DNA from: Planctomycetota bacterium
Lineage (GTDB): Bacteria; Planctomycetota; Phycisphaerae; Phycisphaerales; UBA1924
Direction: 5' to 3'
Length of the DNA stretch: 53,901 nucleotides
NCBI GenBank assembly: GCA_003696675.1
Contig: RFGH01000215.1
Span: forward strand, 1-53,901
This document shows, piece after piece, positions 14,015-50,443 of the stretch. The position numbers were made by a program, and so were the translations under genes. The notes below the pieces were generated by a model that had not been told where the DNA came from, searched no databases, and worked only from the letters and a program-made list of their open reading frames with translations. The stretch's first letter is position 1; every line of letters starts with the position of its first letter.

Positions 14015-14020
14015 TACCAT
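14015..14020 (+). promoter_or_regulatory. -10 element TACCAT, predicts leaderless recR mRNA
   Basis: CGTACCAT ends exactly 6 nt before the ATG at 14027, so the expected transcription start is the A of the start codon. No Shine-Dalgarno precedes that ATG. Confidence 0.55.
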
Positions 14021-14026
14021 GTGGAT

Positions 14027-14704
14027 ATGTCGTCCCGCGACACCCGATCCCGACCCCCGGCCGCCGGCTCCTCGGCCTATCCCGAGCCGATCCGCGCCCT
14101 CATCGACGAACTGGCCGCCCTGCCCGGCATCGGGCGTCGGAGCGCCGAGCGTCTCGCGTTCCACATCCTCAAGTCCCCCGAGCCGGACGCCCTCCGCCTG
14201 GCCGACGCGGTCCGCGCGGTCAAGAAGACGGTGCGCCACTGCCGCTCGTGCTTCAACTTGGGCGACTCGGACCGGTGCGCGATCTGCGCCGACCCCAAGC
14301 GCGACCGCTCGCGCATCCTGGTGGTCGAGCAGCCCAAGGACCTGATCGCGCTGGAGCAGACCGGCATGTACAAGGGCTTGTACCATGTTCTGATGGGGCG
14401 CCTGAGCCCCCTGGACAATGTCGGGCCGGGCGATCTGACCGTGTCGGCCCTGTTCGACCGGATCAAGCACCCCGACAAGCACGCGCCCGAGGGGGTCGAG
14501 GCGACCCCGGTGGGCGAGGTGGTGTTGGGGCTGAACCCGACCGTCGAGGGTGATGGGACCGCCCTGTACCTGGCCGAGCGTTTGCGGGCCTTGCAAGTGC
14601 GGGTCAGCCGGTTGGCGCGGGGTCTGCCGACGGGGGGGAGCCTGGAGTTCGCCAACAAGGCGGTGCTGGCCGACGCGATCAGCGGGCGGCAAGAGATGAT
14701 GTAA
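14027..14704 (+). CDS. recR: recombination mediator protein RecR
   Basis: 225 residues. RecR works with RecF/RecO to load RecA at gaps and stalled forks. Visible: N-terminal helix-hairpin-helix (LAALPGIGRRSAERLAFHIL), a four-Cys zinc finger starting CRSCFNLG at residue 72 and ending CAIC, a Toprim domain (ILVVEQPKDLIALEQTGMYKGLYHVLMG, GEVVLGLNPTVEGD) and the C-terminal GLPTGGSLEFANKAVLADAISGR. The start was set at 14027 because the homologous region begins soon after it and because the -10 element sits just upstream; ATG at 14000 would lie upstream of that element. rpoN follows after 37 bp, probably in the same operon. Confidence 0.96.
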   Translation: MSSRDTRSRPPAAGSSAYPEPIRALIDELAALPGIGRRSAERLAFHILKSPEPDALRLADAVRAVKKTVRHCRSCFNLGDSDRCAICADPKRDRSRILVVEQPKDLIALEQTGMYKGLYHVLMGRLSPLDNVGPGDLTVSALFDRIKHPDKHAPEGVEATPVGEVVLGLNPTVEGDGTALYLAERLRALQVRVSRLARGLPTGGSLEFANKAVLADAISGRQEMM

Positions 14705-14741
14705 ACCGGGAGGGGCCGAGGACCGATCCAGCGGGCAGACC

Positions 14742-16271
14742 ATGCGTTTCGAGCACTCACAACAGATGAAGCTCGGCCAGCATATGAAGCTGGCGCCCCG
14801 GATGATCCAGTCCATGGAGATCCTGCAGATGCCGCTGACCGAGCTGGTCGAGCGGATCGAGCAGGAACTCGAGTCCAACCCCACGCTGGAGTTGGCCGAG
14901 TTCGAGAGCGACGGGCCGGTGACGGAGCAGTCCTCATCCGACGCGGAGTTGGATGTCGACCCTTCCTCGGCAACCGAGTTCGAACGCCTGGACGACTACT
15001 CGGCGGCCAACCCCGACGCCATCGAGAACGCCTTCGACGGACGCACGCGCGATGACGACCCGCGGACCCGGAGCCGCGACGGCGGCGAGCGGGACGCCAA
15101 GATGGATGCGATGTCGCAGGCGCCGGCCCGCGCCGGCTCTCTGGGCGACCAGATGCTGGCGCAGTGGTCGTTGTGCGATGTGAACGACCGGGTTCGCCTG
15201 CTCGGACAAGCGATCATCAATCAGTTGGACGAGGACGGCTACCTCCGCGCGTCGTTCGAGGAGATCGCCCAGCGCGAGTCGCGGCTCGTCCGCGAGCTCG
15301 AGCCGACGGAGACCGACTGGGAGCTCGCCCTCCAAGCGGTGCAGATGTTGCTGGAGCCGACCGGCGTGGCGGCCAAGGACGCGCGGGAGTGCCTGCTGCT
15401 GCAGATCGACGCCCTGATCGACCGGGCCGGCGACGACCCGGACGCGCCGCTGGTGAGTCTCGAGGCGCTCAACGCCGCCCGCCGGCTGGTGGCCGAGTTC
15501 TTCGAGGATCTCATGAAGAACCGGCTTCCAAAAATCGCGGCCCGATCCGGGCTGAGCCTCGAAGAGATCAACGCGGGCATCGAGCAGCTCCGGCGCCTGA
15601 GCCTCGCCCCCGCCCGCGGGCTGACCGACGACGCACCCCAGGCGATCACGCCCGATGCGACCGTCGAGTATGACGAAGAGAACGACCGTTACTTCGCGTA
15701 CCTCAACGACGGGCGGCTGCCGAATATCCGCGTCAACGCCGAGTATGAGCGGCTGAGCAAGGACCGGTCGATGGACAAGCGGGGACGCGAGTTCCTGCGA
15801 AAGAACCTGTCGAACGCCAACTGGCTGATCGACGCCGTCGAGCAACGCAAGCGCACGCTGCTGCGGGTGATCAACGCCGTGATCGACGAGCAACGGGACT
15901 TCTTCGACTTCGGGCCCGAGGCCCTCAAGCCGCTGCCGATGAAGACCATCGCCGACCGGCTCGGCATCCATGTGGCCACGGTGTCGCGGGCGGTTAGCGA
16001 CAAGTACCTGATGACGCCGCGGGGCATCGTGCCGCTGCGGTCGTTCTTCTCCGGCGGTCTGGCGACCGAGTCCGGCGAGGATGTCAGCGCCAACGCCGTT
16101 CGTGCGGCGCTGCAGGAGCTGATCGACACCGAGGACAAGTCCAAGCCCCTCAGCGACGAGAAGCTCGTGCAGATGCTCAACGAAAAAGGCATCGAGATCG
16201 CCCGGCGGACGGTGGCGAAATACCGCGACCAGATGGGCATCCCGACAGCGCGGATGCGCAAGCAGTTTTAG
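14742..16271 (+). CDS. rpoN: RNA polymerase sigma-54 factor
   Basis: 509 residues. Region I is clear at the N-terminus (QQMKLGQHMKLAPRMIQSMEILQMPLTEL, with the Gln-rich activator-contact character), followed by an acidic region II (about residues 50-130), the core-binding domain, and the DNA-binding part with the RpoN box ARRTVAKYRDQMGIPTARMRKQF at the extreme end. Sigma-54 reads -24/-12 promoters and needs AAA+ enhancer-binding proteins; none is encoded in the window. Stop codon at 16269-16271 overlaps the stop of the convergent gene by a few bases, leaving no room for a terminator. Confidence 0.97.
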   Translation: MRFEHSQQMKLGQHMKLAPRMIQSMEILQMPLTELVERIEQELESNPTLELAEFESDGPVTEQSSSDAELDVDPSSATEFERLDDYSAANPDAIENAFDGRTRDDDPRTRSRDGGERDAKMDAMSQAPARAGSLGDQMLAQWSLCDVNDRVRLLGQAIINQLDEDGYLRASFEEIAQRESRLVRELEPTETDWELALQAVQMLLEPTGVAAKDARECLLLQIDALIDRAGDDPDAPLVSLEALNAARRLVAEFFEDLMKNRLPKIAARSGLSLEEINAGIEQLRRLSLAPARGLTDDAPQAITPDATVEYDEENDRYFAYLNDGRLPNIRVNAEYERLSKDRSMDKRGREFLRKNLSNANWLIDAVEQRKRTLLRVINAVIDEQRDFFDFGPEALKPLPMKTIADRLGIHVATVSRAVSDKYLMTPRGIVPLRSFFSGGLATESGEDVSANAVRAALQELIDTEDKSKPLSDEKLVQMLNEKGIEIARRTVAKYRDQMGIPTARMRKQF

Positions 16272-16930
16272 ACGCGAAAGAACCAGCCGCGGCGGAGAGC
16301 GATCCGCGCAGCGCGTTCGATCGCCTTGAGATCGCCGCCGCACTCAGAGCATCGATCCATCTCAACCCCACCGAGACCGTATTCACACCTTGGACACATA
16401 CCGAGTCGGCTCCGGGCCAACATGCGCCTAGCGCGCCTCCGGCGAATGCCAAAGACGACGAGCCACACTGAGCACGCGATCAGTATCACTGAGAAGGCCA
16501 GATTGAGCAACCAAAGGGCGACGAAGAGGCGGTGGACTCTCCAATACGACCCGCCGCCTGCTCGGGCGAGCTCGACGATGCGAGGCTTATCCGCGAGCGG
16601 TGCCGACTCGGCCAACCGCACACCCTCGGCGATCAACGCGGAATCTGGTGTGAATGGGCGGGCGGTCCAGCTTGTCGGTGTCTGCGATGCCCTGGGTATC
16701 TCGTAGTAAAGCAGCATGACCCTGTCGGCGAACGAGAGCCGGTCGGTCATGACCGAAACATACGCATCATTCAGCGTCGCACTGTTCTGGCGAATCCAGC
16801 CCAGATCGTTGTAATCGAAGCCGATGCGTCCGATCAGCAGGATCCAAATCGAGATCACAAGCGGGCAAAGCGTCCCGCACACGATCGCTGGTGATAACCA
16901 CAGCCTGCGGCCGTTGCGAGACCCATTCAT
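16268..16930 (-). CDS. membrane protein with C-terminal zinc ribbon
   Basis: 220 residues. A transmembrane segment near residues 12-35 (LSPAIVCGTLCPLVISIWILLIG) and a second near 150-175 (LFVALWLLNLAFSVILIACSVWLVV) flank a predicted periplasmic part. The tail has a four-Cys ribbon, CPRCEYGLGGVEMDRCSECGG, common in small planctomycete membrane proteins. Its ATG overlaps the upstream permease stop as ATGA (16930-16927), indicating translational coupling and a linked function with the ABC permease. Function unknown. Confidence 0.8.
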   Translation of the reverse strand: MNGSRNGRRLWLSPAIVCGTLCPLVISIWILLIGRIGFDYNDLGWIRQNSATLNDAYVSVMTDRLSFADRVMLLYYEIPRASQTPTSWTARPFTPDSALIAEGVRLAESAPLADKPRIVELARAGGGSYWRVHRLFVALWLLNLAFSVILIACSVWLVVFGIRRRRARRMLARSRLGMCPRCEYGLGGVEMDRCSECGGDLKAIERAARIALRRGWFFRV

Positions 16931-18786
16931 TTCGTCCCCGCCAGCTTCCGCACCGTGAAATCGAACCCGCGGACCATGGCCGCGTGGATGGCGTAGACCA
17001 CCGCGATGTAGACCCCGGCGCTGGTCGCGGCGCCGATGGCCAGCGAGACCCGCGCGGTCGTCAGGCCGGCTTCCTGCACCGTCTCGTTCATTCGGGAGAC
17101 CGGGGCGACCAGCGCGTCGAGCAGGCTGGCCGGGGAGATCGCGGCCAGGGCCGGGCCGATGACCGGCATGTCCGCGCCGCTCGCCCACCCGCACAATCCG
17201 AGCACACCGCTGACCACGCCCACCACCGCCACCGTGCCCACGACCGAGCCCAGCGTGCCCTTGCTCTTGAGCGACCACTGCAGCCCGACCATGACGCAGA
17301 ACGCCGTGAAGGGGACCAGCACCAACGCCGCGATCAGCCCGGCCTCGGGCAGCACGGCCGGGATGTTGACCGTGCCGGTGTTCACCCGCTCGGCGATCAT
17401 CGTTCCGCCCTCGCGCAGGTTCTGGCCGAAGAAGGCGTACAGCCCCGCGATGCCGATCGTGAACACGGGCACCGCGATCAGGGGGATCAGGTACGCCACC
17501 AACCCGCGCAGTTTGCCGGTCAGGTACATCGCCGGGGTGATCGGCGTGGTGAGAATCAAGTCCAGCGTGCCGTCCTCGCGCTCGCGGCTGATGGCGGTGG
17601 CCGCCATGTTGATCGCCACCAGCGCGATCACGAACACCTCGGTGAACACCACCGAACGCACCACGAAGCGGAAGTCCGCCGGGCTAAGCACCCCGGTGTG
17701 GAACACCACCACCACGGCGATGCCCGCGGCCGCACCCAACGCAATGAACGACCAGCGGGCCAGAATCCGCCAAAAGGTCGCGTTGCGGGCGGCGGCTTCC
17801 CGCCAGGCGATGGGGTTGCTCCACACGGTGCGCGGGGGGCGGTGCTCGGCGCCCTTGGCGCCAAGTCCCATCACACGCCGGTACCACGGGATGCCGCTGG
17901 CGCCCGACGCGATCTGCCGCAGCCCGCCGGCCCGCACCGTCAGCGTGCTGACCAGCACCAGGAACACGCTGATCAACACTGTGCCCCACACCCACGCCCG
18001 GACGGGCGTTTCGAACATCAGGGCCTTCACGCCGGCATAGGTGCCCGGCTCGGCGACGGGATAACTGGTCGGGCTGAGCAGCGCCCGCAGGGCGAGGAAC
18101 GGGTTGAGCGCCGTGACCACCGTCACGCCCGAGCCGTTCACGCCCGCGCCCATGCCGCGGGAACGCAGCCACGCGTCGATGGCGATCGTCGTCGCCAGGT
18201 AGGTCACCACCGAGACATAGAACGCGAACACCGCACGCTGGCCGACCAGCCGTGACACGGACAGCGCGATCGCGATCGAGCCGACCAACACCGCGGCCCC
18301 GGCGGAGACGAGGTAGCTGGCCATGATCGACCGCCCCGGCACCCCGCCGAAGAACTGCGTGAGCGCGAAGAGCGGCAGGCTGGCGAACAGCAACGCCAGC
18401 ACAAACCACAGCCGCCCGAGTAGGTTGCCCAGCACGATCTCAAGCTTGGACAAGGGCGTGGTGAGGAGAATATCCCAGGTCCGCGGGTTGGCCTCCTGGG
18501 CGATCGCCCCGGCCATGAACACCGGGCTGAGGATGCAGATCAACGCCACCTGCAGGTAGGCCACCCACGCGAAGCTGGTCGCGCCGGCCGACGCCAGCTC
18601 ACGGTAGCTGACCTCCCCGCCCTGCGTGTTCCCCAGCACCGCCCACAGCAGCACGAGGATCAGCACCGCGAGATAGCCCGACCGCACAAGGTTGTGCTTC
18701 GAACGACGCGAGGCGTTCTGGACGAGCCGGACGGCGATCGGGTTGGCGGGCCCCAGGCGGAGCAACCATCGCAGGAAGATGGGCAT
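16927..18786 (-). CDS. ABC-2 type transporter permease
   Basis: 619 residues with about a dozen hydrophobic segments. The N-terminal half reads like ABC-2 permeases (YLQVALICILSPVFMAGAIAQEANPRTWDILLTTPLSKLEIVLGNLLGRLWFV); the second half repeats the theme (AATAISREREDGTLDLILTTPITPAMYLTGKLRGLVAYLIPL), so it looks like two ABC-2 units fused in one chain. The E-x-x-x-x-T-W-D/L-I-L-T-T-P motif is the coupling region to the ATPase. No ATPase gene lies next to it, so the ATP-binding subunit is presumably left of or outside this window or encoded elsewhere. Substrate unknown. Confidence 0.88.
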   Translation of the reverse strand: MPIFLRWLLRLGPANPIAVRLVQNASRRSKHNLVRSGYLAVLILVLLWAVLGNTQGGEVSYRELASAGATSFAWVAYLQVALICILSPVFMAGAIAQEANPRTWDILLTTPLSKLEIVLGNLLGRLWFVLALLFASLPLFALTQFFGGVPGRSIMASYLVSAGAAVLVGSIAIALSVSRLVGQRAVFAFYVSVVTYLATTIAIDAWLRSRGMGAGVNGSGVTVVTALNPFLALRALLSPTSYPVAEPGTYAGVKALMFETPVRAWVWGTVLISVFLVLVSTLTVRAGGLRQIASGASGIPWYRRVMGLGAKGAEHRPPRTVWSNPIAWREAAARNATFWRILARWSFIALGAAAGIAVVVVFHTGVLSPADFRFVVRSVVFTEVFVIALVAINMAATAISREREDGTLDLILTTPITPAMYLTGKLRGLVAYLIPLIAVPVFTIGIAGLYAFFGQNLREGGTMIAERVNTGTVNIPAVLPEAGLIAALVLVPFTAFCVMVGLQWSLKSKGTLGSVVGTVAVVGVVSGVLGLCGWASGADMPVIGPALAAISPASLLDALVAPVSRMNETVQEAGLTTARVSLAIGAATSAGVYIAVVYAIHAAMVRGFDFTVRKLAGTK

Positions 18787-18792
18787 GGTTCG

Positions 18793-18798
18793 ATGCTA
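18793..18798 (-). promoter_or_regulatory. -10 element TAGCAT, predicts leaderless permease mRNA
   Basis: Minus-strand GAGTAGCAT ends exactly 6 nt before ATG at 18786; the expected transcription start coincides with the start codon. The GGAG in front belongs to the promoter region and would not be in the mRNA. Confidence 0.5.
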
Positions 18799-18979
18799 CT
18801 CCGTTCTGATGCGGGTGATACGCCCATCACCCGCCGCAAGTTCCGAACAAAGCCCTACATATCCACGCACCGCCGTCACAGCGTCACCGGCGTGTTGTGA
18901 TGTTTGTTGTGGGCTTTGGGCCGATGTTGTCAGTCCGGCGTGCCGGGGTGCGGTGATCGTGCGTCCCGCCCCGCCCGGA

Positions 18980-18985
18980 TACCAT
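18980..18985 (+). promoter_or_regulatory. -10 element TACCAT before the ompH-lpxD-lpxC operon
   Basis: GGATACCAT about 48 nt before ATG 19033, leaving a leader of about 40 nt that contains the GGAGAG ribosome site. Confidence 0.5.
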
Positions 18986-19032
18986 GCCCGAGCAACACCA
19001 CCCGGCGGACCCGCCGCGACGGAGAGACAGCC

Positions 19033-19650: not shown

Positions 19651-19669
19651 GCCCGGAGCCATACGCCCG

Positions 19670-24323: not shown

Positions 24324-25070
24324 TCAGTGGCCGGACTCCGTCCGAAACGAAAGCACGATCCCGTCCCGCTCCTCGTCCACGCCGATCGCCATCACACGCA
24401 CATCCCGCCCGTCCGGAAGATGCACCATCGGCTCCTTCGTGATCGGCGCCCTGCCGGAGAGCACATCACCCAACGCCCGACCATCGAGCGTCCCGCCCCG
24501 CGCCTGGGCGCGAAGGTGCTGCTCGAGCTGCCCGATCACCCACGCCCGCGGCACACGCAGCGACCCCACCCGCGCGCCGTGCAACCTGATCCACAGCGAT
24601 CCGTCCTCCCGGATCTCCGGCGTGCAATCCAGCCACAACACCGATGCGCCCGCGTCATGCAAAACACGCACGCCCAGCATCACCCGCCCGTTCTCGAAAC
24701 CGATGCGGACGCCCTCGACCTGCTCGGGCCACAACGCCCCGGCGTCGATCGCCCAATCCCGCAGCCGCACCGCCAGCCACGCGTTCGTGCTCTCCTCCGA
24801 CACACGAACCGCCCAATCCGCGCCGCCATCGTCCCCCGGCTCACGCACCCGCGAAGTCTGGCTCATGAACGCCCGCTCGAGCCTGTCCGCCGCCTCGACC
24901 GTCTCCGGAGCGGCCGGGTCCAGCCCGGGCCACCAGCCCGGCACATCGTCCAACTCCCCAAGCACCACCAACGCCGCGACCCAAGCCATCACCACCGCAC
25001 CGATGGCCGCACCCACCAGCACGCCCAGATGCTCAACCAGCCACGCGATGACACCGCCCGAACGCGCCAT
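24324..25070 (-). CDS. single-span membrane protein, unknown function
   Basis: 248 residues. ATG at 25070 was preferred over a longer frame because a -10 element stops 6 nt before it. One transmembrane segment at about residues 12-38 (LGVLVGAAIGAVVMAWVAALVVLG), then a predicted periplasmic domain with VSEESTNAWLAVRLRDWA, GVRIGFENGRVMLGVRVLH and SLWIRLHGARVGSLRVPRAWV, a pattern that resembles proteins with an extracytoplasmic lipid-binding or adaptor-like beta domain. No firm family can be given. Confidence 0.75.
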   Translation of the reverse strand: MARSGGVIAWLVEHLGVLVGAAIGAVVMAWVAALVVLGELDDVPGWWPGLDPAAPETVEAADRLERAFMSQTSRVREPGDDGGADWAVRVSEESTNAWLAVRLRDWAIDAGALWPEQVEGVRIGFENGRVMLGVRVLHDAGASVLWLDCTPEIREDGSLWIRLHGARVGSLRVPRAWVIGQLEQHLRAQARGGTLDGRALGDVLSGRAPITKEPMVHLPDGRDVRVMAIGVDEERDGIVLSFRTESGH

Positions 25071-25076
25071 GGGGTC

Positions 25077-25082
25077 ACGATA
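25077..25082 (-). promoter_or_regulatory. -10 element TATCGT, predicts leaderless mRNA
   Basis: Minus-strand TCTATCGT ends exactly 6 nt before ATG 25070; no ribosome site is present. Confidence 0.45.
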
Positions 25083-25160: not shown

Positions 25161-25691
25161 TCAGCGCTTCGAGAACTGGAAGCGACGCCGGGCGCCGGGC
25201 TGGCCGTACTTCTTCCGCTCGACCTTGCGGGCGTCGCGGGTCAGGAAGCCGGCATCGCGCAGGGCGGGCTCGAAGTTGGGGTCATACGCCACCAAAGCGC
25301 GGGCGAGCCCAAGACGGATGGCCTGGGCCTGGCCCATGATGCCGCCGCCGTGCGTGCGGACGAACACATCCAGCTTGCCGTCGGTGTCGGTCAGGCGGAG
25401 AGGGGCGACAGCGTCGTTGCGGTCACGCATCTCGCTGAAGTACTCATCGACGGTCTTGAACTTCTTGGCCGAGACTTGGATCTGAACCGTGCCATGCCCG
25501 GAGTTCTTGGCCGGGCGGATGCGGACGCGGGCCACGGCGGACTTGCGCCGACCCGTGCCCCACCACCAGCCGTGCTTGTCGGCGGGGACGGGGTCGGGCA
25601 GCTTGTGCTCTTGCTGGGCCGGGCCGGAATCCTGCACCAGTTTGGTGCCTTCCAGCTCGGGGTTCATGATCGTCGTCTCGAATCCGGACAT
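25161..25691 (-). CDS. rpsI: 30S ribosomal protein S9 with N-terminal extension
   Basis: 176 residues; most bacterial S9 proteins have about 130. The S9 core starts at [16 protein letters not shown] (about residue 42) and ends with the typical [18 protein letters not shown], whose C-terminal Lys-Arg tail reaches the P-site tRNA. The first 41 residues are acidic and Pro-rich and have no S9 counterpart known to me. ATG at 25691 has GAGG upstream; an internal ATG (MNPELEG) would shorten the extension by eight residues. It lies downstream of rplM in the conserved L13-S9 order with a spacer of 87 bp. Confidence 0.96.
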
Positions 25692-30070: not shown

Positions 30071-30862
30071 TCACTCGGCGTCGGCGGGGGCCGCGCCGCT
30101 GTTGGTCATGCGGGCCAGCGCCTTGTTGGCGATCGAGCCGATGACAGCGATGACCACGATCGTGACGGCGATGCCCGCGACGAACAGCCACTTGGGCTTG
30201 TCGGGGTTCGACCAGTCGGTGATCTGCTGCCCGATGACGACATACGCCAGCGTGCGCGGGGCCATGCCCAGCAGCGTGCCGACGATGTAGGCCCGCAGCT
30301 TCACGCCCGTGCCCGCCAGCGTCAGGTTCATCAGCGCGAACGGTGAGTTCGGCGGCACGCGGACCAGCGTGACGATCGCCAGCGTGCGCCAGAACCCCGA
30401 GCGGACGAGCGCGTCGCGAACGACGCGGGCCTTGGCGTGGCGCTGGATCTCCTGCTCGACCTTGTCGCGGGCGACGGTTTTGGCGATGAAGTAGCCGACG
30501 ATCGACGCGCCGCCGAAGCCGGCCAGCGCGGCCGCGAAGCCGAGCGGAACGCCGAAGGCGTAGCCCCCGAGCACCGAGATCGAGTAGGTCGGCAGCACGC
30601 CAAATCCCGCGGCCAGCACGAAGGCCGCGGTGTAGACACCCATGCCCAGCGCGAAGTGCCCCGCCCCGGCCTCGGTCTCGCCCTTGAGCCAGCGGGACAC
30701 CGGGGCCATGTTGGCCAGCAGGGTGAACCCGGCGATCGCGGGCACGAAGGCCCAGGCGAGGGCCAACCACCCGGCGACGCCGAGCCGCCCGAACACGGCC
30801 ATGAAGGAGGAATCAGGCTCCTGCGCGGGCGTGGGATCGGGCTGGGGGGCGGTGTCGGTCAC
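30071..30862 (-). CDS. TVP38/TMEM64 (DedA-like) family membrane protein
   Basis: 263 residues with a GTG start at 30862, supported by a -10 element that ends 7 nt upstream. Five or six transmembrane segments. The family core (SNARE-associated/VTT) is visible: FGVLPTYSISVLGGYAFGVPLGFAAALAGFGGASIVGYFIAKTVARDKV, then FWRTLAIVTLVRVPPNSPFALMNLTLAGTGVKLRAYIVGTLLGMAPRT. The F/Y-G-x-x-x-G and R-x-x-P-x-x-P/S-F-x-x-x-N pattern matches DedA-superfamily proteins, for which lipid scrambling or flipping has been proposed. Substrate here unknown. Confidence 0.85.
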   Translation of the reverse strand: MTDTAPQPDPTPAQEPDSSFMAVFGRLGVAGWLALAWAFVPAIAGFTLLANMAPVSRWLKGETEAGAGHFALGMGVYTAAFVLAAGFGVLPTYSISVLGGYAFGVPLGFAAALAGFGGASIVGYFIAKTVARDKVEQEIQRHAKARVVRDALVRSGFWRTLAIVTLVRVPPNSPFALMNLTLAGTGVKLRAYIVGTLLGMAPRTLAYVVIGQQITDWSNPDKPKWLFVAGIAVTIVVIAVIGSIANKALARMTNSGAAPADAE

Positions 30863-30869: not shown

Positions 30870-30875
30870 ATGGTA
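30870..30875 (-). promoter_or_regulatory. -10 element TACCAT, predicts leaderless mRNA
   Basis: Minus-strand CGTACCAT ends 7 nt before the GTG at 30862, the same octamer as before recR and lpdA. Confidence 0.5.
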
Positions 30876-31926: not shown

Positions 31927-31956
31927 TTGACACGAACGGCAGGCGCGCATTAGCCT
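31927..31956 (+). promoter_or_regulatory. dnaA promoter (TTGACA, 18 nt, TAGCCT)
   Basis: Perfect -35 TTGACA at 31927-31932 and -10 TAGCCT at 31951-31956; the clearest sigma-70-type promoter in the window. The start of transcription would be near 31963, 3 nt before a GTG at 31966 that is in frame with dnaA. Confidence 0.7.
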
Positions 31957-32079
31957 TGTCCCCCTGTGATCCCGGCTTGGACGACGGCGTGGGACCGACC
32001 GCCGCCCAAGCGTGGGCAGACCATGACCGAACCCCCCCGGGCGCCGCTCCACGCCCGTCAGACAAACGAGCGCACACCG

Positions 32080-40953: not shown

Positions 40954-40959
40954 TACGAT
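40954..40959 (+). promoter_or_regulatory. -10 element TACGAT, predicts leaderless lysS mRNA
   Basis: GGGTACGAT ends 5 nt before the GTG start at 40965; no ribosome site precedes the GTG. Confidence 0.5.
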
Positions 40960-40964: not shown

Positions 40965-42761
40965 GTGACCGAGCCGACCACCGACACACCGACCGCGCCC
41001 TCCCCCGATGACCTCCACCAGCTCGAGGCGCAGCGCCGCATCAACCGCGATGCCACGGCCGCGCTGGGCGTGAATCCCTACGGCCAACGGACCGAGGGGC
41101 TCGTGCCCCTGGCCGAGGCCCGCGCCCGCTACGACGAGGACGCCGACCTGGAGTATCAGGAAAAGGGCAAGGAAGAAGGCTTCGTCGACCGACGCCCGGT
41201 CGTCCGCGTGGCGGGGCGCATCGTGCTGCGACGCCCGACGGGCAAGCTGATCTGGATGAACCTGCGCGACCACACCGACGACTCGTTCCAGGTCGCGGTG
41301 TCCAAGCGGGACTGCGACGAGCTGGGATTCGCGGTGGCGACCAACGCCGACCTGGGCGACCTGGTGGTCGTCGAAGGCCCGCTGATGAAGACCCGCACCG
41401 GCGAGGTGACGCTGTGGGCCTCTTCGATGACGCCCGCGGCCAAGTGCCTCGTGCCGCCGCCCGAGAAGCACGCCGGGCTGACCGACCCCGAGCTCCGTGC
41501 CCGCAAACGCTACATCGACATGTGGGCCAACCCCGAAACCACCCGCACGCTGCTGCTCCGCTCGAAGATCGTCGCGGCGATCCGGCGGCTGCTGGATTCG
41601 ATGGGCTTTGTCGAGGTCGAGACGCCCATGCTGCAGACACAGGCCGGCGGCGCGGCCGCACGCCCGTTCCTCACCCATCTCAACGCGCTCGACATACCGC
41701 TGTCACTACGCATCGCGCCCGAGCTCTACCTCAAGCGATTGCTCGTCGGCGGCATCCCCAAGGTCTACGAGATCAATCGAAACTTCCGCAACGAAGGCGT
41801 GGACAAGCGCCACAACCCCGAGTTCACCGCCATCGAGCTGTACGAAGCATACGGCGATGTGAACTCGGTCATGCACATCACCGAGGCGATCATCCGCGAA
41901 TCGGCCCGCGTCGCTGTTGGAGCAATGAATATCAACCGATTGCGCACACCAAAGTTCAATGCTGGAAAGTATGGCGGTGAGTCCATCGGAAGGGTGATGG
42001 ATATCGATCAGCCATATATTGTTAATCTTCTTGATGACCTGGAGCATCACAAAGATCGACTTCCACTCGATGTCTATGGTGCTCTCACTCAGGCAAAGTT
42101 GTCGCCAGCTCCACTTGAGGCGCTCCGATTCAGATCGGCCGAGGAGGCGGACCTTAGTCTCGTTGTACCATTTGGCTCTTGGAGTATCGATTACTCCAAG
42201 CCATTTGTCCGCGTGACCTACGCCGACCTCTTCGAGCGGGCGCTCGGCTTCCCGATGACCGACACCGCCCGCGCCCGGCAGGAAGCGCAGAAGCGGCATC
42301 TCAAGACCAAGAACGAGAAAGGCGAGCCGCTCGATGATCTCTGGGTGGTCAACGAGCTGTTCGAAGAGGTCGCCGAGAAACTCATCGACCCCGCCCGCCC
42401 GACCTGGGTGATGCGCTATCCCGCCGCCCTCTCGCCGCTGACCCGCCCCTGCCAGGACGACCCCGCGTTCGCCGATCGCTCCGATCTCTTCATCGCCGGC
42501 ATGGAAGTCGGCCCTCACTACACCGAGCTGAACGACCCGGACATCCAGGCGGCCAAGTTCCGCGAGCAGCTCGCCGGCATCGACGACGAGGAATCCACCT
42601 TCCGCAACTTCGACCACGACTTCATCGAGGCGCTCAAGGTCGGCATGCCCCCCGCAGGCGGCATGGGCCTGGGCATCGACCGGCTCGCCATGCTCATGTC
42701 CAGCAAGGACACCATCCGCGAGGTGATCCCGTTCCCCTTCGTCCGCCCGCTCAACAACTGA
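40965..42761 (+). CDS. lysS: lysyl-tRNA synthetase, class II, with an internal insertion
   Basis: 598 codons from GTG 40965; E. coli LysS has 505 residues. N-terminal OB-fold anticodon-binding domain (VRVAGRIVLRRPTGKLIWMNLRD), then the class II core: motif 1 region (RSKIVAAIRRLLDSMGFVEVETPML), motif 2 (YEINRNFRNEGVDKRHNPEFTAIELYEAYGD) and motif 3 (GGMGLGIDRLAMLMSSKDTIREVIPFPF). Between IIRESARVAV (to residue 318) and SLVVPFGSWSIDYSKPF (from about 398) lie some 80 residues absent from E. coli LysS, where the two flanks are nearly adjacent. The insertion keeps the frame and coincides with a low-GC island. Essential charging enzyme for tRNA-Lys, presumably active. Confidence 0.95.
   Translation: MTEPTTDTPTAPSPDDLHQLEAQRRINRDATAALGVNPYGQRTEGLVPLAEARARYDEDADLEYQEKGKEEGFVDRRPVVRVAGRIVLRRPTGKLIWMNLRDHTDDSFQVAVSKRDCDELGFAVATNADLGDLVVVEGPLMKTRTGEVTLWASSMTPAAKCLVPPPEKHAGLTDPELRARKRYIDMWANPETTRTLLLRSKIVAAIRRLLDSMGFVEVETPMLQTQAGGAAARPFLTHLNALDIPLSLRIAPELYLKRLLVGGIPKVYEINRNFRNEGVDKRHNPEFTAIELYEAYGDVNSVMHITEAIIRESARVAVGAMNINRLRTPKFNAGKYGGESIGRVMDIDQPYIVNLLDDLEHHKDRLPLDVYGALTQAKLSPAPLEALRFRSAEEADLSLVVPFGSWSIDYSKPFVRVTYADLFERALGFPMTDTARARQEAQKRHLKTKNEKGEPLDDLWVVNELFEEVAEKLIDPARPTWVMRYPAALSPLTRPCQDDPAFADRSDLFIAGMEVGPHYTELNDPDIQAAKFREQLAGIDDEESTFRNFDHDFIEALKVGMPPAGGMGLGIDRLAMLMSSKDTIREVIPFPFVRPLNN
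41915..42205 (+). other. low-GC island within lysS
   Basis: By hand count 121 of 240 bases are G or C in 41941-42180 (38% in 42001-42060), against clearly higher values in the rest of the gene. Codons such as CCA, GGA, AAT, CTT, GAT, TTT and AGT, rare elsewhere here, are frequent. The right end has a perfect 9-bp palindrome (CTTGGAGTA, TCGAT loop, 42178-42200). The island covers the extra LysRS segment plus a few conserved codons after it. Confidence 0.75.
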
Positions 42762-43910: not shown

Positions 43911-43965
43911 GGTTGAATCCTCCATCGCGGCAACGGTCCGGGAATAACTGTTCGTGCCAGACCGA

Positions 43966-44130: not shown

Positions 44131-44136
44131 TACGGT
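44131..44136 (+). promoter_or_regulatory. -10 element TACGGT, predicts leaderless pyrE mRNA
   Basis: GGCTACGGT ends exactly 6 nt before ATG 44143; no ribosome site. Confidence 0.45.
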
Positions 44137-44142
44137 TGACCT

Positions 44143-44700
44143 ATGACCAGTCAGGGCCTTGATCGGGACGCCATCGCCAAATCCATCGCCGACGCCTCGC
44201 TGCTGCGCGGCACCTTCACGCTCCGCTCTGGACGGACCAGCTCGTACTACCTCGATAAGTACCGTTTCTCGACCTGTCCCGAGGTGCTCGGCCCGCTCGC
44301 CGACCTGTTCGCCGAGCGGATCGCTGCCATCGCGGCCGACTGCGGCGGGGTGGACCGGCTGGCCGGCGCCGAGCTCGGCGGCATCCCCCTCGTCGCGGCC
44401 ACCTGCCTCAAGACCGGTCATCCCACCCTCTTCGTCCGCAACGCCAAGAAGGACTACGGCACCGCCAAGCAGCTCGAGGGCGTGGTCGAAAAGGGCGACA
44501 AGGTCGTCTTTCTCGAGGATGTCGCCACCACCGGCGGGCAGGCGCTCGAGGCGGTCAAAGTCCTCACCGAGGCCGGGGCCGAGGTCGTCGCGATCGTCTG
44601 CACCATCGACCGGCTCGAGGGCGCCCGCGAAAACATCGAGGGCGCGGGCATCCGATTCGAGGCGCTGTTCACCAAGCGCGACCTGGGCGTGGACGAGTAG
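44143..44700 (+). CDS. pyrE: orotate phosphoribosyltransferase
   Basis: 185 residues. Joins orotate and PRPP to give OMP in de novo pyrimidine synthesis. The PRPP loop is VVFLEDVATTGGQ (121-133); other family features are LLRGTFTLRSGRTSSYYLDKYRF at the N-terminus with the orotate-binding region, GAELGGIPLVAATCL and FVRNAKKDYGTAKQLEG. The C-terminal domain ends normally. The partner pyrF is not adjacent. Its stop lies 3 bp from the stop of the convergent membrane protein gene. Confidence 0.95.
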   Translation: MTSQGLDRDAIAKSIADASLLRGTFTLRSGRTSSYYLDKYRFSTCPEVLGPLADLFAERIAAIAADCGGVDRLAGAELGGIPLVAATCLKTGHPTLFVRNAKKDYGTAKQLEGVVEKGDKVVFLEDVATTGGQALEAVKVLTEAGAEVVAIVCTIDRLEGARENIEGAGIRFEALFTKRDLGVDE

Positions 44701-44703
44701 CGA

Positions 44704-45501
44704 TCACCCCCCGACCAGCGTCGCGAACGCCATCCACGCGTCCGTGCGCGCCAACGCCAGGATCCCCCAGCTCGCCGCGGAAAGAGCCGCGAAGCCCACC
44801 ACCAGCGGCCGCTCGATGTTCCGGGCCAGCACGCACCGCACCGCCACCAGCGCCGCGCCGATCAACAGGGTGGCGAAGAACGGGCCGAACACCCGCTCCC
44901 ACACCGTGCCGGTGTAGAGATGGCTGATCGCGTCGATGCGGCTGACCGCCGCCGAGATCGTTGCCAGCGTGCCCAGCAGCATCGCCGCCCGGTGCACGTC
45001 GGGCTTGCGACGCTTCCACACCCCCACCGCCACGCACACACCGAAGATCGCGACCGAGATCAGCGGCACCGCCATGAACCGCGCGGGCGTCAGCCCCCAG
45101 ATCACCATCTCCGGCGGGCTGACGCGGGCTGAGGCGATGCCGATGACCACGCCCAATACGACGATGACCAGCGCCAGCATCGCGCCGAACCGCCCGAGCG
45201 CCATGTGAAGCCGGCGCCGGCGCAGCGCGACCAGCATCGGCTGCACCGCGAAGAGCACGATCCACAGCGACATCGACAGCCCGTGCGCGATCACCAGCAT
45301 CCGGATCGGCGGCGTGATGGGGCGGCCGGGGTACGACTGGCCCTTGAAGTAGAACAACTGAAAACCGATCACCGTCAACGCGAGCATGACCAAGCCCGCG
45401 AAGGGATAGAACCAACGGTTCAGGGCAGTGGTCCAAGTCTTCAATGTTGATTTCAAATCAGAAGCGGTCGGGTCGGCGGCGTGTTCGGCGATGAGGCTCA
45501 T
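44704..45501 (-). CDS. polytopic membrane protein, DUF2306-like
   Basis: 265 residues with seven predicted transmembrane segments (for example FYPFAGLVMLALTVIGFQLFYF, MLALVIVVLGVVIGIASARV, FGPFFATLLIGAALVAVRCVLA). The middle pattern VIAHGLSMSLWIVLFAVQPMLVALRRRRLHMALGRFGAMLAL, with His in successive helices, resembles DUF2306-type membrane proteins. ATG at 45501 has an AGGA ribosome site. It is divergent from the arsenic operon, and its regulatory region adjoins the ArsR operator, but nothing in its sequence links it to arsenic. Function unknown. Confidence 0.75.
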   Translation of the reverse strand: MSLIAEHAADPTASDLKSTLKTWTTALNRWFYPFAGLVMLALTVIGFQLFYFKGQSYPGRPITPPIRMLVIAHGLSMSLWIVLFAVQPMLVALRRRRLHMALGRFGAMLALVIVVLGVVIGIASARVSPPEMVIWGLTPARFMAVPLISVAIFGVCVAVGVWKRRKPDVHRAAMLLGTLATISAAVSRIDAISHLYTGTVWERVFGPFFATLLIGAALVAVRCVLARNIERPLVVGFAALSAASWGILALARTDAWMAFATLVGG

Positions 45502-45637
45502 CGGTGGATCCTGCGTGCGTTGTGCGATGGGCCGGCGTCCCCACGACGCCCGGCGAGCAGGAACGATTCCCTGGCTGCGGCGTGAAATCCAGACTCAAGG
45601 GCTCTGGCGCTGAAATCAGGCCGGTCCGCTTGCTTTG

Positions 45638-45663
45638 TTTGCATGAATGTGCAAATATTGCAT
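45638..45663 (+). promoter_or_regulatory. candidate ArsR operator
   Basis: Overlapping inverted repeats TTGCA-N6-TGCAA (45639-45654) and TGCAA-N3-TTGCA (45650-45662), the only such cluster seen nearby, directly before the arsR start; dyads of this kind are usual ArsR binding sites. Confidence 0.5.
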
Positions 45664-45664
45664 C

Positions 45665-46069
45665 ATGGTGCATTTATCATCCCAGCCCGAGGTCCGCCCC
45701 GGCACCCCGGCCGAGGCGGCCGCGTGCTGTGGCCCGATCGACCGGCTGCTCGACCCGGCCCTCTTCAAGGCCCTGTGCGACCCCACCCGGGCCGCGTTGG
45801 TGGCCTGCATCGCCAAGTGCGGGCGGGGCTGCTCGGTCTCCGAGGTCGCGGCGTGCTGCTCGGTCGATACCTCGGTCGTCTCCCGCCATCTGGCTACCCT
45901 CGAGAAGGCCGGCGTGCTGACCAGCGAGCGGGACGGACGGGTGGTCCGCTACAGCGTGCGCTACGCCGACCTGAGCGCGACACTGCGGGCATTGGCCGAC
46001 GCGATCGACGCGTGCTGCCCCGAGGGATGCGCCGAAGGGAACGAGGAGGGCGGCTGTGGCTGCTGCTGA
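45665..46069 (+). CDS. arsR: ArsR family repressor of the arsenic operon
   Basis: 134 residues from ATG 45665 (GTG at 45647 would add six). Winged helix: DPALFKALCDPTRAALVACIAKCGRGCSVSEVAACCSVDTSVVSRHLATLEKAGVLTSERDGRVVRYSV. Cysteines are abundant: C21/C22, C38, C48, C52, C56, C64/C65, C117/C118 and a C-terminal cluster GCAEGNEEGGCGCC, giving several possible As(III) sites. Arsenite binding would release it from the operator just upstream. It overlaps arsC by 14 nt, so translation is probably coupled. Confidence 0.93.
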   Translation: MVHLSSQPEVRPGTPAEAAACCGPIDRLLDPALFKALCDPTRAALVACIAKCGRGCSVSEVAACCSVDTSVVSRHLATLEKAGVLTSERDGRVVRYSVRYADLSATLRALADAIDACCPEGCAEGNEEGGCGCC

Positions 46070-46502
46070 ACGCATCAAGGTGCTGTTCCTGTGCACGGGC
46101 AACTCCTGCCGCAGCCAGATGGCCGAGGGCTGGGCGAAGGCGCTGCGGGCCGACACCGTCGAGGCCTACTCCGCGGGCACCAACCCGCAGGGCGTAAACC
46201 GGCTGGCCGTCCAGGCGATGCGCGAGGTCGGCGTGGACATCACCGGTCATTACAGCAAACGCCCCGAGGAGCTGGGCGTTGCCTTCGATTTCGTCGTGAC
46301 GGTCTGCGATTCCGCCCACGAGTCCTGCCCGGTGTTCCCGGGAGGCGCGCGCGTGGTGCATGTCGGATTCGACGACCCGCCGCGCCTGGCCAAGGACGCG
46401 ACGAGCGACGAAGAGGCTCTGCCGCATTACCGGCGCGTGCGCGACGAGATTCGCGCGTTCATCGAAACACTGCCGGGCGCTCTGCAGGACGCGCGCGGCT
46501 GA
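46056..46502 (+). CDS. arsC: arsenate reductase, thioredoxin-coupled (low-MW phosphatase fold)
   Basis: 148 residues from GTG 46056 with GAGGAGG upstream. Reduces As(V) to As(III). The P-loop is FLCTGNSCRSQMAEG with C13 and R19 (C-x5-R), and the two relay cysteines are C84 and C91 (VTVCDSAHESCPVF), seven apart as in the pI258-type enzymes, where C10, C82 and C89 act in turn. So it is the thioredoxin-type rather than the glutaredoxin-type ArsC. Coupled with arsR upstream and 16 bp before arsM. Confidence 0.95.
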   Translation: MAAAERIKVLFLCTGNSCRSQMAEGWAKALRADTVEAYSAGTNPQGVNRLAVQAMREVGVDITGHYSKRPEELGVAFDFVVTVCDSAHESCPVFPGGARVVHVGFDDPPRLAKDATSDEEALPHYRRVRDEIRAFIETLPGALQDARG

Positions 46503-46518
46503 CACGAGAGGATCATCC

Positions 46519-47493
46519 ATGTTCGGCATCAAGAAGAAGACCGAAACCACCAACCGGAACGCCTGCTGCGGCCCGTCGTGCTGCGGGGGAACCAAGCCGT
46601 CCATCGCGTCCACACCCCAATCCCAGACCGATCAGGACGCCGTGCGCAACACCGTCCGCGAAGGCTACAGCACCATCGCCAGAGCCGGCTCCTGGACCGC
46701 GGCGCAATCCGCGTCCGCCTGCTGCACGCCGTCGTCCTCCGGCGGCATGTGCTGCGGCCCGACCGCCTTCACGCCCGACCAGCTCGCGTCCGCCATCGGC
46801 TACAGCGACGAAGACCTCGCCAACACGCCCGAATCGGCCAACATGGGGCTTTCCTGCGGCAATCCGACCGCGCTGGCCAACCTGCGCCCGGGAGAGACCG
46901 TCCTCGACCTCGGCTCCGGCGGCGGATTCGACTGCTTCATCGCGGGCAAGAAGGTCGGCGCGGGCGGGCTGGTCATCGGCGTCGACATGACGCCCGACAT
47001 GATCACCAAGGCCCGAGCCAACACGAAGATCTACTTCGACCAGACCGGCCTGCGCAATGTCGAGTTCCGGCTCGGCGAGATCGAGCACCTGCCCGTGCCC
47101 GACGCCAGCGTCGATGTCGTGCTCTCCAACTGCGTCCTGAACCTCTCGCCCGACAAGGCGCAGGTCTGGAAGGAAATCGCCCGCGTGCTTAAGCCCGGCG
47201 GGCGCGTCGCGGTGAGCGACCTTGCCCTGCTCCGCCCGCTGCCCGAGTCCGTCGCGGCCGACCTCGAGGCCCTGGTCGGCTGCGTGGCTGGCGCTGTGCT
47301 GGTCGAAGAAACCGAGCGCCAGATGTTGGACGCCGGGCTCGCGGCCATCACGCTGACGCCCAAGCCCGGCTACATCGACTCGATGAGCACCTGGCAGGAT
47401 CCGCTCTACCGCAAGATCGCCGAAGCACTGCCCGAGGGCACCACGCCCAGCGACTTCGTCACCAGTCTGGATATCGCGGCGATCAAGCCCTGA
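46519..47493 (+). CDS. arsM: arsenite S-adenosylmethionine methyltransferase
   Basis: 324 residues. Methylates As(III) with SAM. SAM-binding motif [11 protein letters not shown] at 130-140, [12 protein letters not shown] with C113, and the As-binding cysteines C205 ([10 protein letters not shown]) and C255 (LVGCVAGAV), which are 50 apart as are C174 and C224 in the well-studied algal ArsM. The N-terminus has three extra CC pairs ([10 protein letters not shown] and [14 protein letters not shown], residues 16-80) that may take up or hand over arsenite. ATG 46519 follows GAGAGGA. Third gene of the operon. Confidence 0.95.
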
Positions 47494-47554
47494 GGTCGGA
47501 AACAAGGATCAGCCGCACCGGGAACGATCACAGAGCGTGACAGAGGAAGCGTAC

Positions 47555-48682
47555 ATGAAAACAGATCATGCGACCGCACATCCGGACCTCTCGGTGCCCT
47601 CCGTCTTGAAGTCTTCGAGCGGGTCCGCGGAACCCGCCTGCACCACGCCCAAACGCCTTGGTTTTCTCGACCGCTACCTCACCGTCTGGATCTTCGCGGC
47701 CATGGCTATCGGCGTGACGATCGGCAAACTCATCCCCGGCGCGTCCGAGGCTCTCGACTCCATGTCGGTGGGCACCACCAACATCCCCATCGCCGTCGGC
47801 CTGATCCTGATGATGTATCCGCCGCTGGCCAAGGTGCGCTACGAGAAACTTCCCGAAGTCTTCAGGGATCGCAAGGTCCTCGCCCTGTCGCTGATCCAGA
47901 ACTGGGTCGTCGGTCCGACACTGATGTTCGCGCTGGCCGTACTGTTTCTGCGGGATCACCCCGAGTACATGACCGGCCTGATCCTCGTCGGTCTGGCCCG
48001 CTGCATCGCGATGGTGCTGGTCTGGAACGAACTCGCCCGCGGCAGCAGCGACTACGCGGCCGGCCTGGTCGCGTTCAACTCGATCTTCCAGGTGCTCTTC
48101 TTCGGCGTCTACGCATGGCTGTTCATCACCTTCCTCCCGCCGCTGCTCGGGTTGGAGGGTGCGGTGGTCGATGTGTCGATCGGCCAGGTCTTTGCCAGCG
48201 TGATGGTGTATCTCGGCATCCCCTTCTTCGCCGGCATGCTCACACGGTTCGTGCTGCGACCCATCAAGGGTGACGCGTGGTACACCGGCGTGTTCCTGCC
48301 TCGGATCGCCCCGATCACGCTCGTCGCCCTTCTGCTGACCATCGTCGCCATGTTCAGCCTGCAGGGTGAGCGCATCGTCGCCCTGCCGCTGGATATCCTG
48401 CGGATCGCCGTCCCGCTGACGCTCTACTTTGTCATCATGTTCATTGTCAGTTTCCTGCTAGCCCGCAAGATCGGTGCGGACTACCAGCGGGCGGCCACGC
48501 TGGCGTTCACCGCCTCGGGCAACAACTTCGAGCTGGCGATCGCGGTCGCCATCGCGGTTTTCGGCATCGGCTCGGGCGTGGCCTTCGCCACGGTCGTCGG
48601 CCCGCTGGTCGAGGTACCCGTCCTGATCGGGCTCGTCTCGGTCTCCCTGTGGCTCGGACGCCGCCTGTACGGACGGGCGTAG
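47555..48682 (+). CDS. acr3: arsenite efflux transporter, ACR3 family
   Basis: 375 residues from ATG 47555, preferred over GTG 47537 because GAGGAAG lies 7 nt before it. Ten predicted transmembrane segments. ACR3 signatures: [47 protein letters not shown] with the conserved Cys, and [22 protein letters not shown] with the conserved Glu. It expels arsenite using the proton gradient. The first 36 residues (Ser/Pro-rich, before [12 protein letters not shown]) are an extension. Last gene of the ars operon, 61 bp after arsM. Confidence 0.95.
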
Positions 48683-48715
48683 GGCAAATGCTCGCGCCGA
48701 CCGACGCGTCCACCC

Positions 48716-48721
48716 TACGAT
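48716..48721 (+). promoter_or_regulatory. -10 element TACGAT before metG
   Basis: CCTACGAT ends 9 nt before ATG 48731; a leader of at most a few nucleotides is expected, and no ribosome site is present. Confidence 0.5.
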
Positions 48722-48730
48722 CCTCCCGCG

Positions 48731-50443
48731 ATGACCACCGACCACCCCCCGTACTACATCACGACCCCCATCTACTATGTCAACGACCGCCCGCACATCG
48801 GGCACTGCTACACCACGCTCGTCGCCGATGTGGCCGCCCGGGGCCAGCGATTGCTCGGACGCGATGTCTTCTTCCTCACCGGCACCGACGAGCACGCCGA
48901 GAAGGTCGTCACCACCGCCAAGGACCGCGGCCTGACACCCATGCAGTGGGCCACCACCAACGCCGAACGCTTCAAGAGCGCCTTCGCGTTCATGAACTTC
49001 AGCAACGACGACTTCATCCGCACCACCGAGGACCGCCACAAGAGCCGCGCCAGCGCCTACATCCAGCGCCTGGTCGACTCCGGCGACATCGAACTCGGCG
49101 ACTACGAGGGCTGGTGGGACGGCTCGCAGGAGGAGTACCTCACCGAGACCGTCGCCAAGGAGCACAACTACAAAAGCCCCGTCACCGGCAAGCCCCTCGA
49201 GAAACGCGTCGAACAGAACTACTTCTTCCGGCTCGACAAGCACGAGGCATGGCTCAAGGAACAGATCCAGTCCGACGCGATCCGCGTGCTCCCCGAGGCC
49301 CGCAAGAACGAGATCCTCGGACGCATCAACACCGGGCTGCAGCGCGTGCCCGTCTCCCGCAGGATCAAGCCCGGCGACCCCGACTGGGGCGTCGTCATGC
49401 CTAACGACCCGGAGCACCGCGTCTATGTCTGGATCGAGGCGCTCTGCAACTACCTCACCACCGTCGACACCCCCGACCGCCGCAAATACTGGCACGCCCC
49501 CGTCCACCTGATGGCCAAGGACATCGTGTGGTTCCACGCCGTCATCTGGCCCGCCATGCTCCACGCGCTGGGCGAGAAGCCACCGGCCGTGGTCTACGCC
49601 CACGCCTACTGGATCGCCGAAGGCCAGAAGATGTCCAAGAGCCTGGGCAACTTCATCGAGATCGACACCCTCCGCGCCTACGCCGACAAGTACAGCCTCG
49701 ACAGCGTCCGCTGGTTCCTGACCACCCAGGGCCCGCTGGGTGCCAACGACGCCGACTTCGCCCACGCCCGCTTCGTCGATGTCTACAACGCCGACCTGGC
49801 CAACAGCGTCGGAAACTCGGCTAGCCGCGTCGGCAACATGGTCGACAAGTACTTCGAGGGCACGCTGCCGCGGACCTGCGACGGCACCTTCGGCTTCGAG
49901 GGCGGCAAGGCCCTGCAGCTCGCCCTCAAGGCCCGCGACGACGCCGGCAAGCCCGTCGATGTCCCCGGTCGCACCTTCGACTTCCCCACGCTCACCACCG
50001 ATGCCGTCGCCAACTTCACCAAGTCCCTCGACACGGTCGACCTCGAATCCGCCATGAACGAGGGCCTGCGCATCGTCCGCACCGTCGACGACTTCATCAC
50101 CTACAGCGCCCCCTTCACGCTGGCCAAACGCATCGGCGATCTCGAGCACGCCGAAAAAGCCCTCGCCACCATCCTCTACTCCTGCGCCGAGGCCCTCCGC
50201 ATCGCCTCGCTCCTGCTCTCGCCCACGATGCCCGACAAGATGGCCGCCCTGTGGCGTGCGTGGAACTGCACACATCTCAACGACCCGAACGACCCCAACT
50301 CCGGCTTCGTCGCCCCGCTCGCCGAGCTCGCCCAGTGGGGCGGCCCCCACGGCTTCCAGGCCGGCAGCCGCGTGAGCAAGGGAGAAGTGCTCTTCATGCG
50401 GGCCGACCCCAAGGAGCCCGCGCCCGAAGCGGCCGCGGTGTGA
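48731..50443 (+). CDS. metG: methionyl-tRNA synthetase
   Basis: 570 residues, class I synthetase. Signature 1 is NDRPHIGHCY and signature 2 is KMSKS; YITTPIYYVND and FLTGTDEHAEKVVTTA are typical of MetRS. The connective domain (YEGWWDGSQEEYLTET... GKPLEKRVEQNYFFRLDK) has no cysteines, so the zinc knuckle of many MetRSs is missing. The anticodon-binding helices follow (VDVYNADLANSVGNSASRVGNMVDKYF) with a non-standard 40-residue stretch after them. No C-terminal EMAP/Trbp111 domain. The downstream gene starts 4 bp after the stop. Confidence 0.96.
   Translation: MTTDHPPYYITTPIYYVNDRPHIGHCYTTLVADVAARGQRLLGRDVFFLTGTDEHAEKVVTTAKDRGLTPMQWATTNAERFKSAFAFMNFSNDDFIRTTEDRHKSRASAYIQRLVDSGDIELGDYEGWWDGSQEEYLTETVAKEHNYKSPVTGKPLEKRVEQNYFFRLDKHEAWLKEQIQSDAIRVLPEARKNEILGRINTGLQRVPVSRRIKPGDPDWGVVMPNDPEHRVYVWIEALCNYLTTVDTPDRRKYWHAPVHLMAKDIVWFHAVIWPAMLHALGEKPPAVVYAHAYWIAEGQKMSKSLGNFIEIDTLRAYADKYSLDSVRWFLTTQGPLGANDADFAHARFVDVYNADLANSVGNSASRVGNMVDKYFEGTLPRTCDGTFGFEGGKALQLALKARDDAGKPVDVPGRTFDFPTLTTDAVANFTKSLDTVDLESAMNEGLRIVRTVDDFITYSAPFTLAKRIGDLEHAEKALATILYSCAEALRIASLLLSPTMPDKMAALWRAWNCTHLNDPNDPNSGFVAPLAELAQWGGPHGFQAGSRVSKGEVLFMRADPKEPAPEAAAV

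Follow-up and report, generated by a model that had tools for sequence, protein, structure and literature searches.

Genes of a planctomycete bacterium (assembly GCA_003696675.1; GTDB lineage Planctomycetota; Phycisphaerae; Phycisphaerales; UBA1924) often carry the hexamer TAnnnT a few bases before the start codon, an arrangement that we interpret, with a probability of about 0.88, as a -10 promoter element giving rise to predicted leaderless mRNAs. It was noticed at seven genes of contig RFGH01000215.1, whose 53,901 bases, the whole of contig 56 in this 3.28-Mb genome (243 contigs, 92% complete), are referred to below as the window. We define "start-adjacent boxes" as TAnnnT hexamers with 5-9 nt between the hexamer and the start codon, and "TA genes" as the genes that carry them. 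Leaderless transcription is a prediction, in support of which the boxes are strongly enriched at this position and keep it in relatives despite differing flanks.

The frequency of start-adjacent boxes was determined in stretches of the genome that, including the window, amount to 861,748 bases (26% of the genome). The gene caller used coding statistics and start-codon type only, made no use of upstream signals, and dropped open reading frames (ORFs) of fewer than 80 codons; arbitrary 20-kb cuts end some of the stretches, and a few genes are broken thereby. It called 685 genes, of which 569 were kept after removal of those that were open at the 5' end, had a low coding score, or lay 100 nt or less from a stretch end. 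Start-adjacent boxes precede 80 of the 569 (14.1%, 95% interval 11.3-17.2%), while 300 dinucleotide shuffles of the 40 bases upstream of each start gave a mean of 6.9 genes (sd 2.5, maximum 14), so that about seven of the 80 are expected to be chance matches. The proportion is similar when the window is excluded (74 of 526 genes), and only 65 of 16,780 internal ATG or GTG triplets (0.39%) have a box at the same distance. Enrichment over a shuffled control was the sequence test that the original prediction had proposed for itself, and on this quarter of the genome it was passed by a large margin. The window gene recR is not among the 80, because the caller placed its start at 14000, upstream of the box.

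The distance between box and start codon is narrowly distributed. Gap counts among the 569 genes are 23, 35, 9, 9 and 5 for gaps of 5, 6, 7, 8 and 9 nt, fall to a total of 4 for gaps of 10-17 nt, and continue as a low plateau beyond. Gaps 5 and 6, which place the first T at -11 and -12, account for 58 of the 81 boxes in the 5-9 nt range. No peak at this distance is seen for TAnnnT on the antisense strand (6 boxes among 440 non-operon genes). C, G and A predominate at the three middle positions, none of which has T at a frequency above 0.17. Start-adjacent boxes are also rare in overlapping gene pairs (3 of 67, versus 40 of 285 spaced same-strand genes), which fits a promoter function because such pairs need no promoter of their own.

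Conservation of the box was examined most extensively at lysS, the lysine--tRNA ligase gene. Orthologues were found in all 41 genomes of the relatives search, and 30 loci (our own and those of 29 relatives) were read, a box being scored where 5-9 nt separate TAnnnT from an in-frame start that lies no more than 60 nt from the projected one. Boxes were present at 25 of the 30 loci, that is in 24 of the 29 relatives: 14 of 18 in the same family and 10 of 11 elsewhere in the order. Two further family members both have the box, bringing the total for family and order to 26 of 31 relatives, and so does the one genome read from another order of the class. When the misses were inspected by eye, two (L090 and L096) proved to have a clear and one (L106) a weak Shine-Dalgarno-like stretch, in one (L097) the box lies at gap 10, and one (L092) has neither. 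The metG box recurs in 14 of 16 relatives, the exceptions being a locus cut by a contig end (L286) and one with a leader containing AAGGA (L295). The recR box recurs in 3 of 4 relatives and that of the VTT-domain gene in its single homologue. Across relatives the first, second and sixth bases of the box (T, A and T) are kept, as is its distance to the start, and the inner bases and flanks vary.

Conservation within the family is not confined to lysS. Among family orthologue pairs with lysS left out, and with starts as called, the relative is boxed in 7 of 10 pairs in which our gene is a TA gene, versus 2 of 37 in which it is not (p = 6e-5); when any nearby start is accepted the figures are 8 of 12 and 4 of 35 (p = 5e-4), though the pairs are not independent, some of our genes appearing in several of them.

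The proposed mechanism is as follows. The start-adjacent TAnnnT is likely to be the -10 element of a promoter recognized by the primary sigma factor. Polymerase would begin transcription 6-7 nt past the box, as in other bacteria, and the mRNA would begin at the start codon or within about 3 nt of it: a hexamer at -12 to -7 followed by a gap of 6 nt would put +1 on the start codon itself, and gaps of 5-9 nt would correspond to leaders of roughly 0-3 nt. It is because of this spacing, and because Shine-Dalgarno sites are not in excess at these genes, that the mRNAs are predicted to start on the start codon or beside it. Such transcripts would be translated without a Shine-Dalgarno site by ribosomes able to initiate on an AUG or GUG at the very 5' end, probably through the 70S initiation route that is familiar from other bacteria. 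A second class of genes is likely to combine a more distant upstream TAnnnT with a leader and a Shine-Dalgarno site.

The distribution of Shine-Dalgarno motifs is consistent with two classes of genes. Shine-Dalgarno 4-mers in TA genes occur at the shuffled level (10 observed versus 8.7 expected), whereas in the other genes they are far above it (254 versus 107). Outside tight operons, boxes at gaps of 18-59 nt number 104 on the sense strand and 53 on the antisense strand, as expected for promoters of leadered genes. These leadered upstream boxes (n = 106) have a small excess of -35-like sequences: 6 agree with TTGACA at five or more of its six bases, where 1.0 was expected. The claim that two translation classes share one promoter type therefore holds for the TAnnnT box and fails for the -35 element, of which an excess is seen at leadered boxes only; the -10 box appears to be common to both classes, and the start-adjacent set looks independent of a -35 element. 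The remainder, 235 of the 569 genes, lacks both a start-adjacent TAnnnT and a Shine-Dalgarno 4-mer. The most strongly raised degenerate box in these genes is [ACG]AnnnT at gap 6 (15 versus a mean of 5.3), which hints at a third mode of initiation or at leaderless boxes of a weaker kind.

Several results weigh against the leaderless interpretation. No TA gene has a Shine-Dalgarno 5-mer (0 of 80, versus 166 of 489 other genes), but this exclusion is partly steric, by construction, because the box and a Shine-Dalgarno site compete for the same bases. A -35 partner, sought as a TTGACA-like sequence at a spacing of 15-19 nt from the 68 start-adjacent boxes outside tight operons, was not found: matches of at least 4 of 6 bases were found 7 times (5.9 expected) and of at least 5 of 6 not at all (0.6 expected), so that the start-adjacent set lacks the -35 plus -10 combination of canonical sigma-70 promoters. 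The boxes of two window genes are poorly kept, that of pyrE being present in only 3 of 6 homologues and that of the ORF starting at 25070 in none of 3 weak homologues. In pairs with other families of the order, lysS left out, gene-level conservation was 0 of 9. Finally, the signal failed to appear in an actinobacterial set of 56 genes from 6 loci that served as a positive control, where there were 5 sense and 6 antisense boxes.

Other explanations of the boxes account for less of the evidence. Since it has just three fixed bases, a single box is a weak match, and chance or upstream base composition might produce it; for the set as a whole this was rejected on the shuffled control, and the absence of a peak on the other strand and the retention of the box in relatives make it scarcely credible. 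A role in translation rather than transcription, as an unstructured site or a binding site for ribosomal protein S1, might be entertained because leaderless and S1 signals were inseparable in the single planctomycete included by Nakagawa 2017 (PMC5397173). However, the middle bases are not U-rich, the gap varies little, and few overlapping gene pairs have the box; we consider such a role very improbable.

The remaining alternative, somewhat less improbable but still unlikely, is that the boxes are genuine -10 elements and that translation often starts further downstream, in which case the transcripts would have leaders and the box-adjacent starts would be miscalled. GC-rich ORFs do offer several starts; dnaA, for example, has a GTG 9 nt and an ATG 66 nt past its box, and at recR the caller and the original prediction disagree about the start, though relatives favour 14027 over the caller's 14000. 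Miscalled starts would blur the peak, whereas starts called with no knowledge of upstream signals still peak at gaps 5-6 and leave gaps 10-17 nearly empty. Moreover, in relatives the box-adjacent start of lysS and metG is often the sole in-frame start near the projected one. We therefore prefer the interpretation of the start-adjacent boxes as -10 elements of leaderless genes.

To assess the spread of the signal, genes were counted in 20-kb stretches around lysS, excluding lysS itself and genes in tight operons. Start-adjacent boxes number 30 in 208 genes within the family (antisense 3), 11 in 148 genes in other families of the order (antisense 3), and 12 in 227 genes in 24 genomes of other classes (antisense 14). 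Restricted to a GC content of at least 0.6, the boxed genes are 27 of 198, 9 of 132 and 8 of 155, respectively; the family differs from the other classes (p = 0.011) and the other families of the order do not (p = 0.62). The genome-wide sequence signal is thus established for the family, and because of the latter result the claim outside the family rests on lysS and metG only. In other classes of the phylum the lysS box was found in 0 of 24 and 3 of 24 genomes (L182, L198 and L199) in two sets that share 8 genomes, or 3 of 40 altogether. Ten named lysS loci carry the titles Planctomycetota, planctomycete, or Phycisphaerae or Phycisphaerales; 4 have the box and 6 do not, and the trait is therefore not general to every genome so titled. 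Of the 12 boxes in the stretches from other classes, 7 lie at exactly gap 6 (L181, L183, L185, L188, L192, L196), as do 5 of the 8 at a GC content of at least 0.6. Sparse leaderless genes may occur in these classes as well.

Control genomes were analyzed with the same caller. Plasmid MP1 of D. radiodurans has 9 boxes in 48 genes (2 antisense) and E. coli has none in 27 genes (1 antisense). A set of beta- and gammaproteobacteria gave 6 sense and 6 antisense boxes in 144 genes, and a mixed set of delta, myxo and acidobacterial loci gave 13 sense and 5 antisense in 110 genes.

Leaderless expression on such a scale is well known in actinobacteria, Deinococcus and archaea. The arrangement described here closely resembles the TA-led genes of Zheng et al. 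2011 (PMC3160421), whose defining mark is a TANNNT some 12 bp upstream of the start. As in that account, the signal here is clustered about 10-12 bp upstream, lies significantly above shuffles, carries little information in its middle bases at high GC, and is accompanied by no Shine-Dalgarno signal, the last being partly steric in our data. The proportions differ, TA-led genes making up about 20% of genes in Actinobacteria and about 40% in Deinococcus-Thermus according to that paper and about 14% of sampled genes here. Zheng et al. report leaderless genes in 207 of 953 genomes, and the groups named in that context omit Planctomycetes. Zhong et al. 2025 (PMC12340547) describe for Deinococcus-Thermus a TANNNT motif a few bp before the ORF, with spacing-dependent activity and enhanced transcription upon addition of a -35 element at the appropriate place; the arrangement is the same here, in another phylum, but theirs was established by experiment and ours is read from sequence alone. 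Their survey of all bacteria may already include Planctomycetes.

A further parallel is provided by M. tuberculosis, for which Cortes et al. 2013 (PMC3898074) mapped 5' ends and report that 26% of genes with a primary transcription start site (TSS) are leaderless. There, as here, TANNNT occurs without a -35 consensus, leaderless and Shine-Dalgarno classes exist together, and both AUG and GUG serve as starts; the 5' ends were mapped in M. tuberculosis, whereas those of the planctomycete are predicted. Of 14 tRNA synthetase genes for which that study gives a primary TSS, 7 are leaderless, the state that is predicted here for argS, lysS and metG. For planctomycetes themselves, Nakagawa 2017 (PMC5397173) reports for its one representative a signal of leaderless genes, of S1 or of both, and a 2024 survey (PMC10783764) assigns Phycisphaerae to the standard anti-Shine-Dalgarno type. 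In our genome 16S rRNA matches were only partial (G000:C191:123010-123857, model positions 9-902), ending near a contig end without the anti-Shine-Dalgarno tail. Searches of the open-access literature on leaderless genes in planctomycetes, Phycisphaerae included, returned no paper that names either subject in its title, which is no proof that the finding is unpublished. The start-adjacent box is real, conserved and present on a genome scale; features of its kind are known, though descriptions from this lineage are few, and the leaderless state of its transcripts is a prediction.

A planctomycete clade with conservation at the level of single genes, beside other classes that mostly lack the lysS box, offers a test case for how often this mode of expression evolves and for which genes join it, tRNA synthetases being again among them. 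In these genomes, gene finders guided by Shine-Dalgarno sites may assign wrong starts to about 1 in 7 genes, and a minimal promoter consisting of a -10 element only could serve in expression constructs for Phycisphaerae. The original prediction had noted translation and housekeeping genes in the leaderless set. The tRNA synthetase genes argS, lysS and metG are indeed boxed in our sample, but a preference could not be demonstrated: aspS and thrS have no box, and rpsI in the window is Shine-Dalgarno-led. A functional preference for translation genes was rejected as a claim, given just five tRNA synthetases (3 boxed, 2 not), of which lysS and metG came with the finding itself. E. coli ribosomal protein queries gave no match in our sample, in which ORFs of fewer than 80 codons had been dropped by the caller.

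In some gene pairs the stop codon of the upstream gene also supplies the first three bases of the box. All four same-strand pairs spaced by exactly 9 nt in our sample, argS being in one of them, have an upstream TAA or TAG that begins a TAnnnT at gap 6 (Table 1). TAA and TAG stops form a box in 4 of 5 cases at spacings of 8-12 nt, versus 3 of 17 at the remaining spacings of 30 nt or less; in the family stretches the sole 9-nt pair is also fused (L155:15598(-)) and in the other classes the sole such pair is not, all of these counts being small. It is conceivable, although we would put it at somewhat less than even odds, that a branch of Phycisphaerae evolved a genome-wide -35-less TAnnnT leaderless system separately from those of actinobacteria and Deinococcus, so compact that a TAA or TAG stop can be half of the -10 box for a leaderless gene starting 9 nt further on.

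Table 1. Predicted promoter boxes and associated genes in the window (first 16 rows), and stop/box fusions in the wider genome sample (last four rows)
Feature	Position	Strand	Remarks
TACCAT, predicted -10 box	14015..14020	+	gap 6 to ATG 14027 (recR)
recR (recombination mediator), predicted leaderless	14027..14704	+	NCBIfam
TAGCAT, predicted -10 box	18793..18798	-	gap 6 to ATG 18786; GGAG just upstream of box
ABC-2 family permease, predicted leaderless	16927..18786	-	Pfam
TATCGT, predicted -10 box	25077..25082	-	gap 6 to ATG 25070
ORF without family match, predicted leaderless	24324..25070	-	
TACCAT, predicted -10 box	30870..30875	-	gap 7 to GTG 30862 (VTT-domain protein)
VTT (TVP38-like) membrane protein, predicted leaderless	30071..30862	-	Pfam
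TACGAT, predicted -10 box	40954..40959	+	gap 5 to GTG 40965 (lysS)
lysS (lysine--tRNA ligase), predicted leaderless	40965..42761	+	NCBIfam
TACGGT, predicted -10 box	44131..44136	+	gap 6 to ATG 44143 (pyrE)
pyrE (orotate phosphoribosyltransferase), predicted leaderless	44143..44700	+	NCBIfam
TACGAT, predicted -10 box	48716..48721	+	gap 9 to ATG 48731 (metG)
metG (methionine--tRNA ligase), predicted leaderless or with leader of ~3 nt	48731..50443	+	NCBIfam
TACGCT, leadered-class example	3144..3149	-	32 nt before ATG 3111; GGAGG at this gene
dnaA promoter candidate TTGACA-N18-TAGCCT	31927..31956	+	GTG 31966 9 nt and ATG 32023 66 nt downstream
Stop/box fusion	L004:6014	+	next start 6 nt after box
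Stop/box fusion	L028:8190	-	next start 6 nt after box
Stop/box fusion	L028:11021	-	next start 6 nt after box
Stop/box fusion	L082:1211	+	next start 6 nt after box

In the window, all seven hexamers, gaps and start codons agree with the original description, position 14015 being the first base of the hexamer and not the start of recR. Six of the seven starts have no Shine-Dalgarno 4-mer or 5-mer in the preceding 22 nt, as had been claimed for all of them; the permease gene starting at 18786 departs from this with a GGAG that ends 12 nt before the start. Family searches bear out the names given to six of the genes, leaving the presumed membrane protein at 25070 without a match. The same hexamers had also been placed upstream of genes with GGAGG sites. 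Of four such genes that were checked, those starting at 3111, 28294 and 43910 have TAnnnT 32, 45 and 55 nt upstream together with GGAGG or AGGAG, while fdxA (51239) has TACGAT 64 nt upstream and AGGA only.

Two other genes in the window deserve mention. At dnaA (31927-32025) the transcript would be near-leaderless if GTG 31966 is the start, and a start at ATG 32023 would give it a leader of about 60 nt. The rpsI ORF (25164-25691) is Shine-Dalgarno-led and has an N-terminus about 43 residues longer than the family model (176 versus 130 amino acids).

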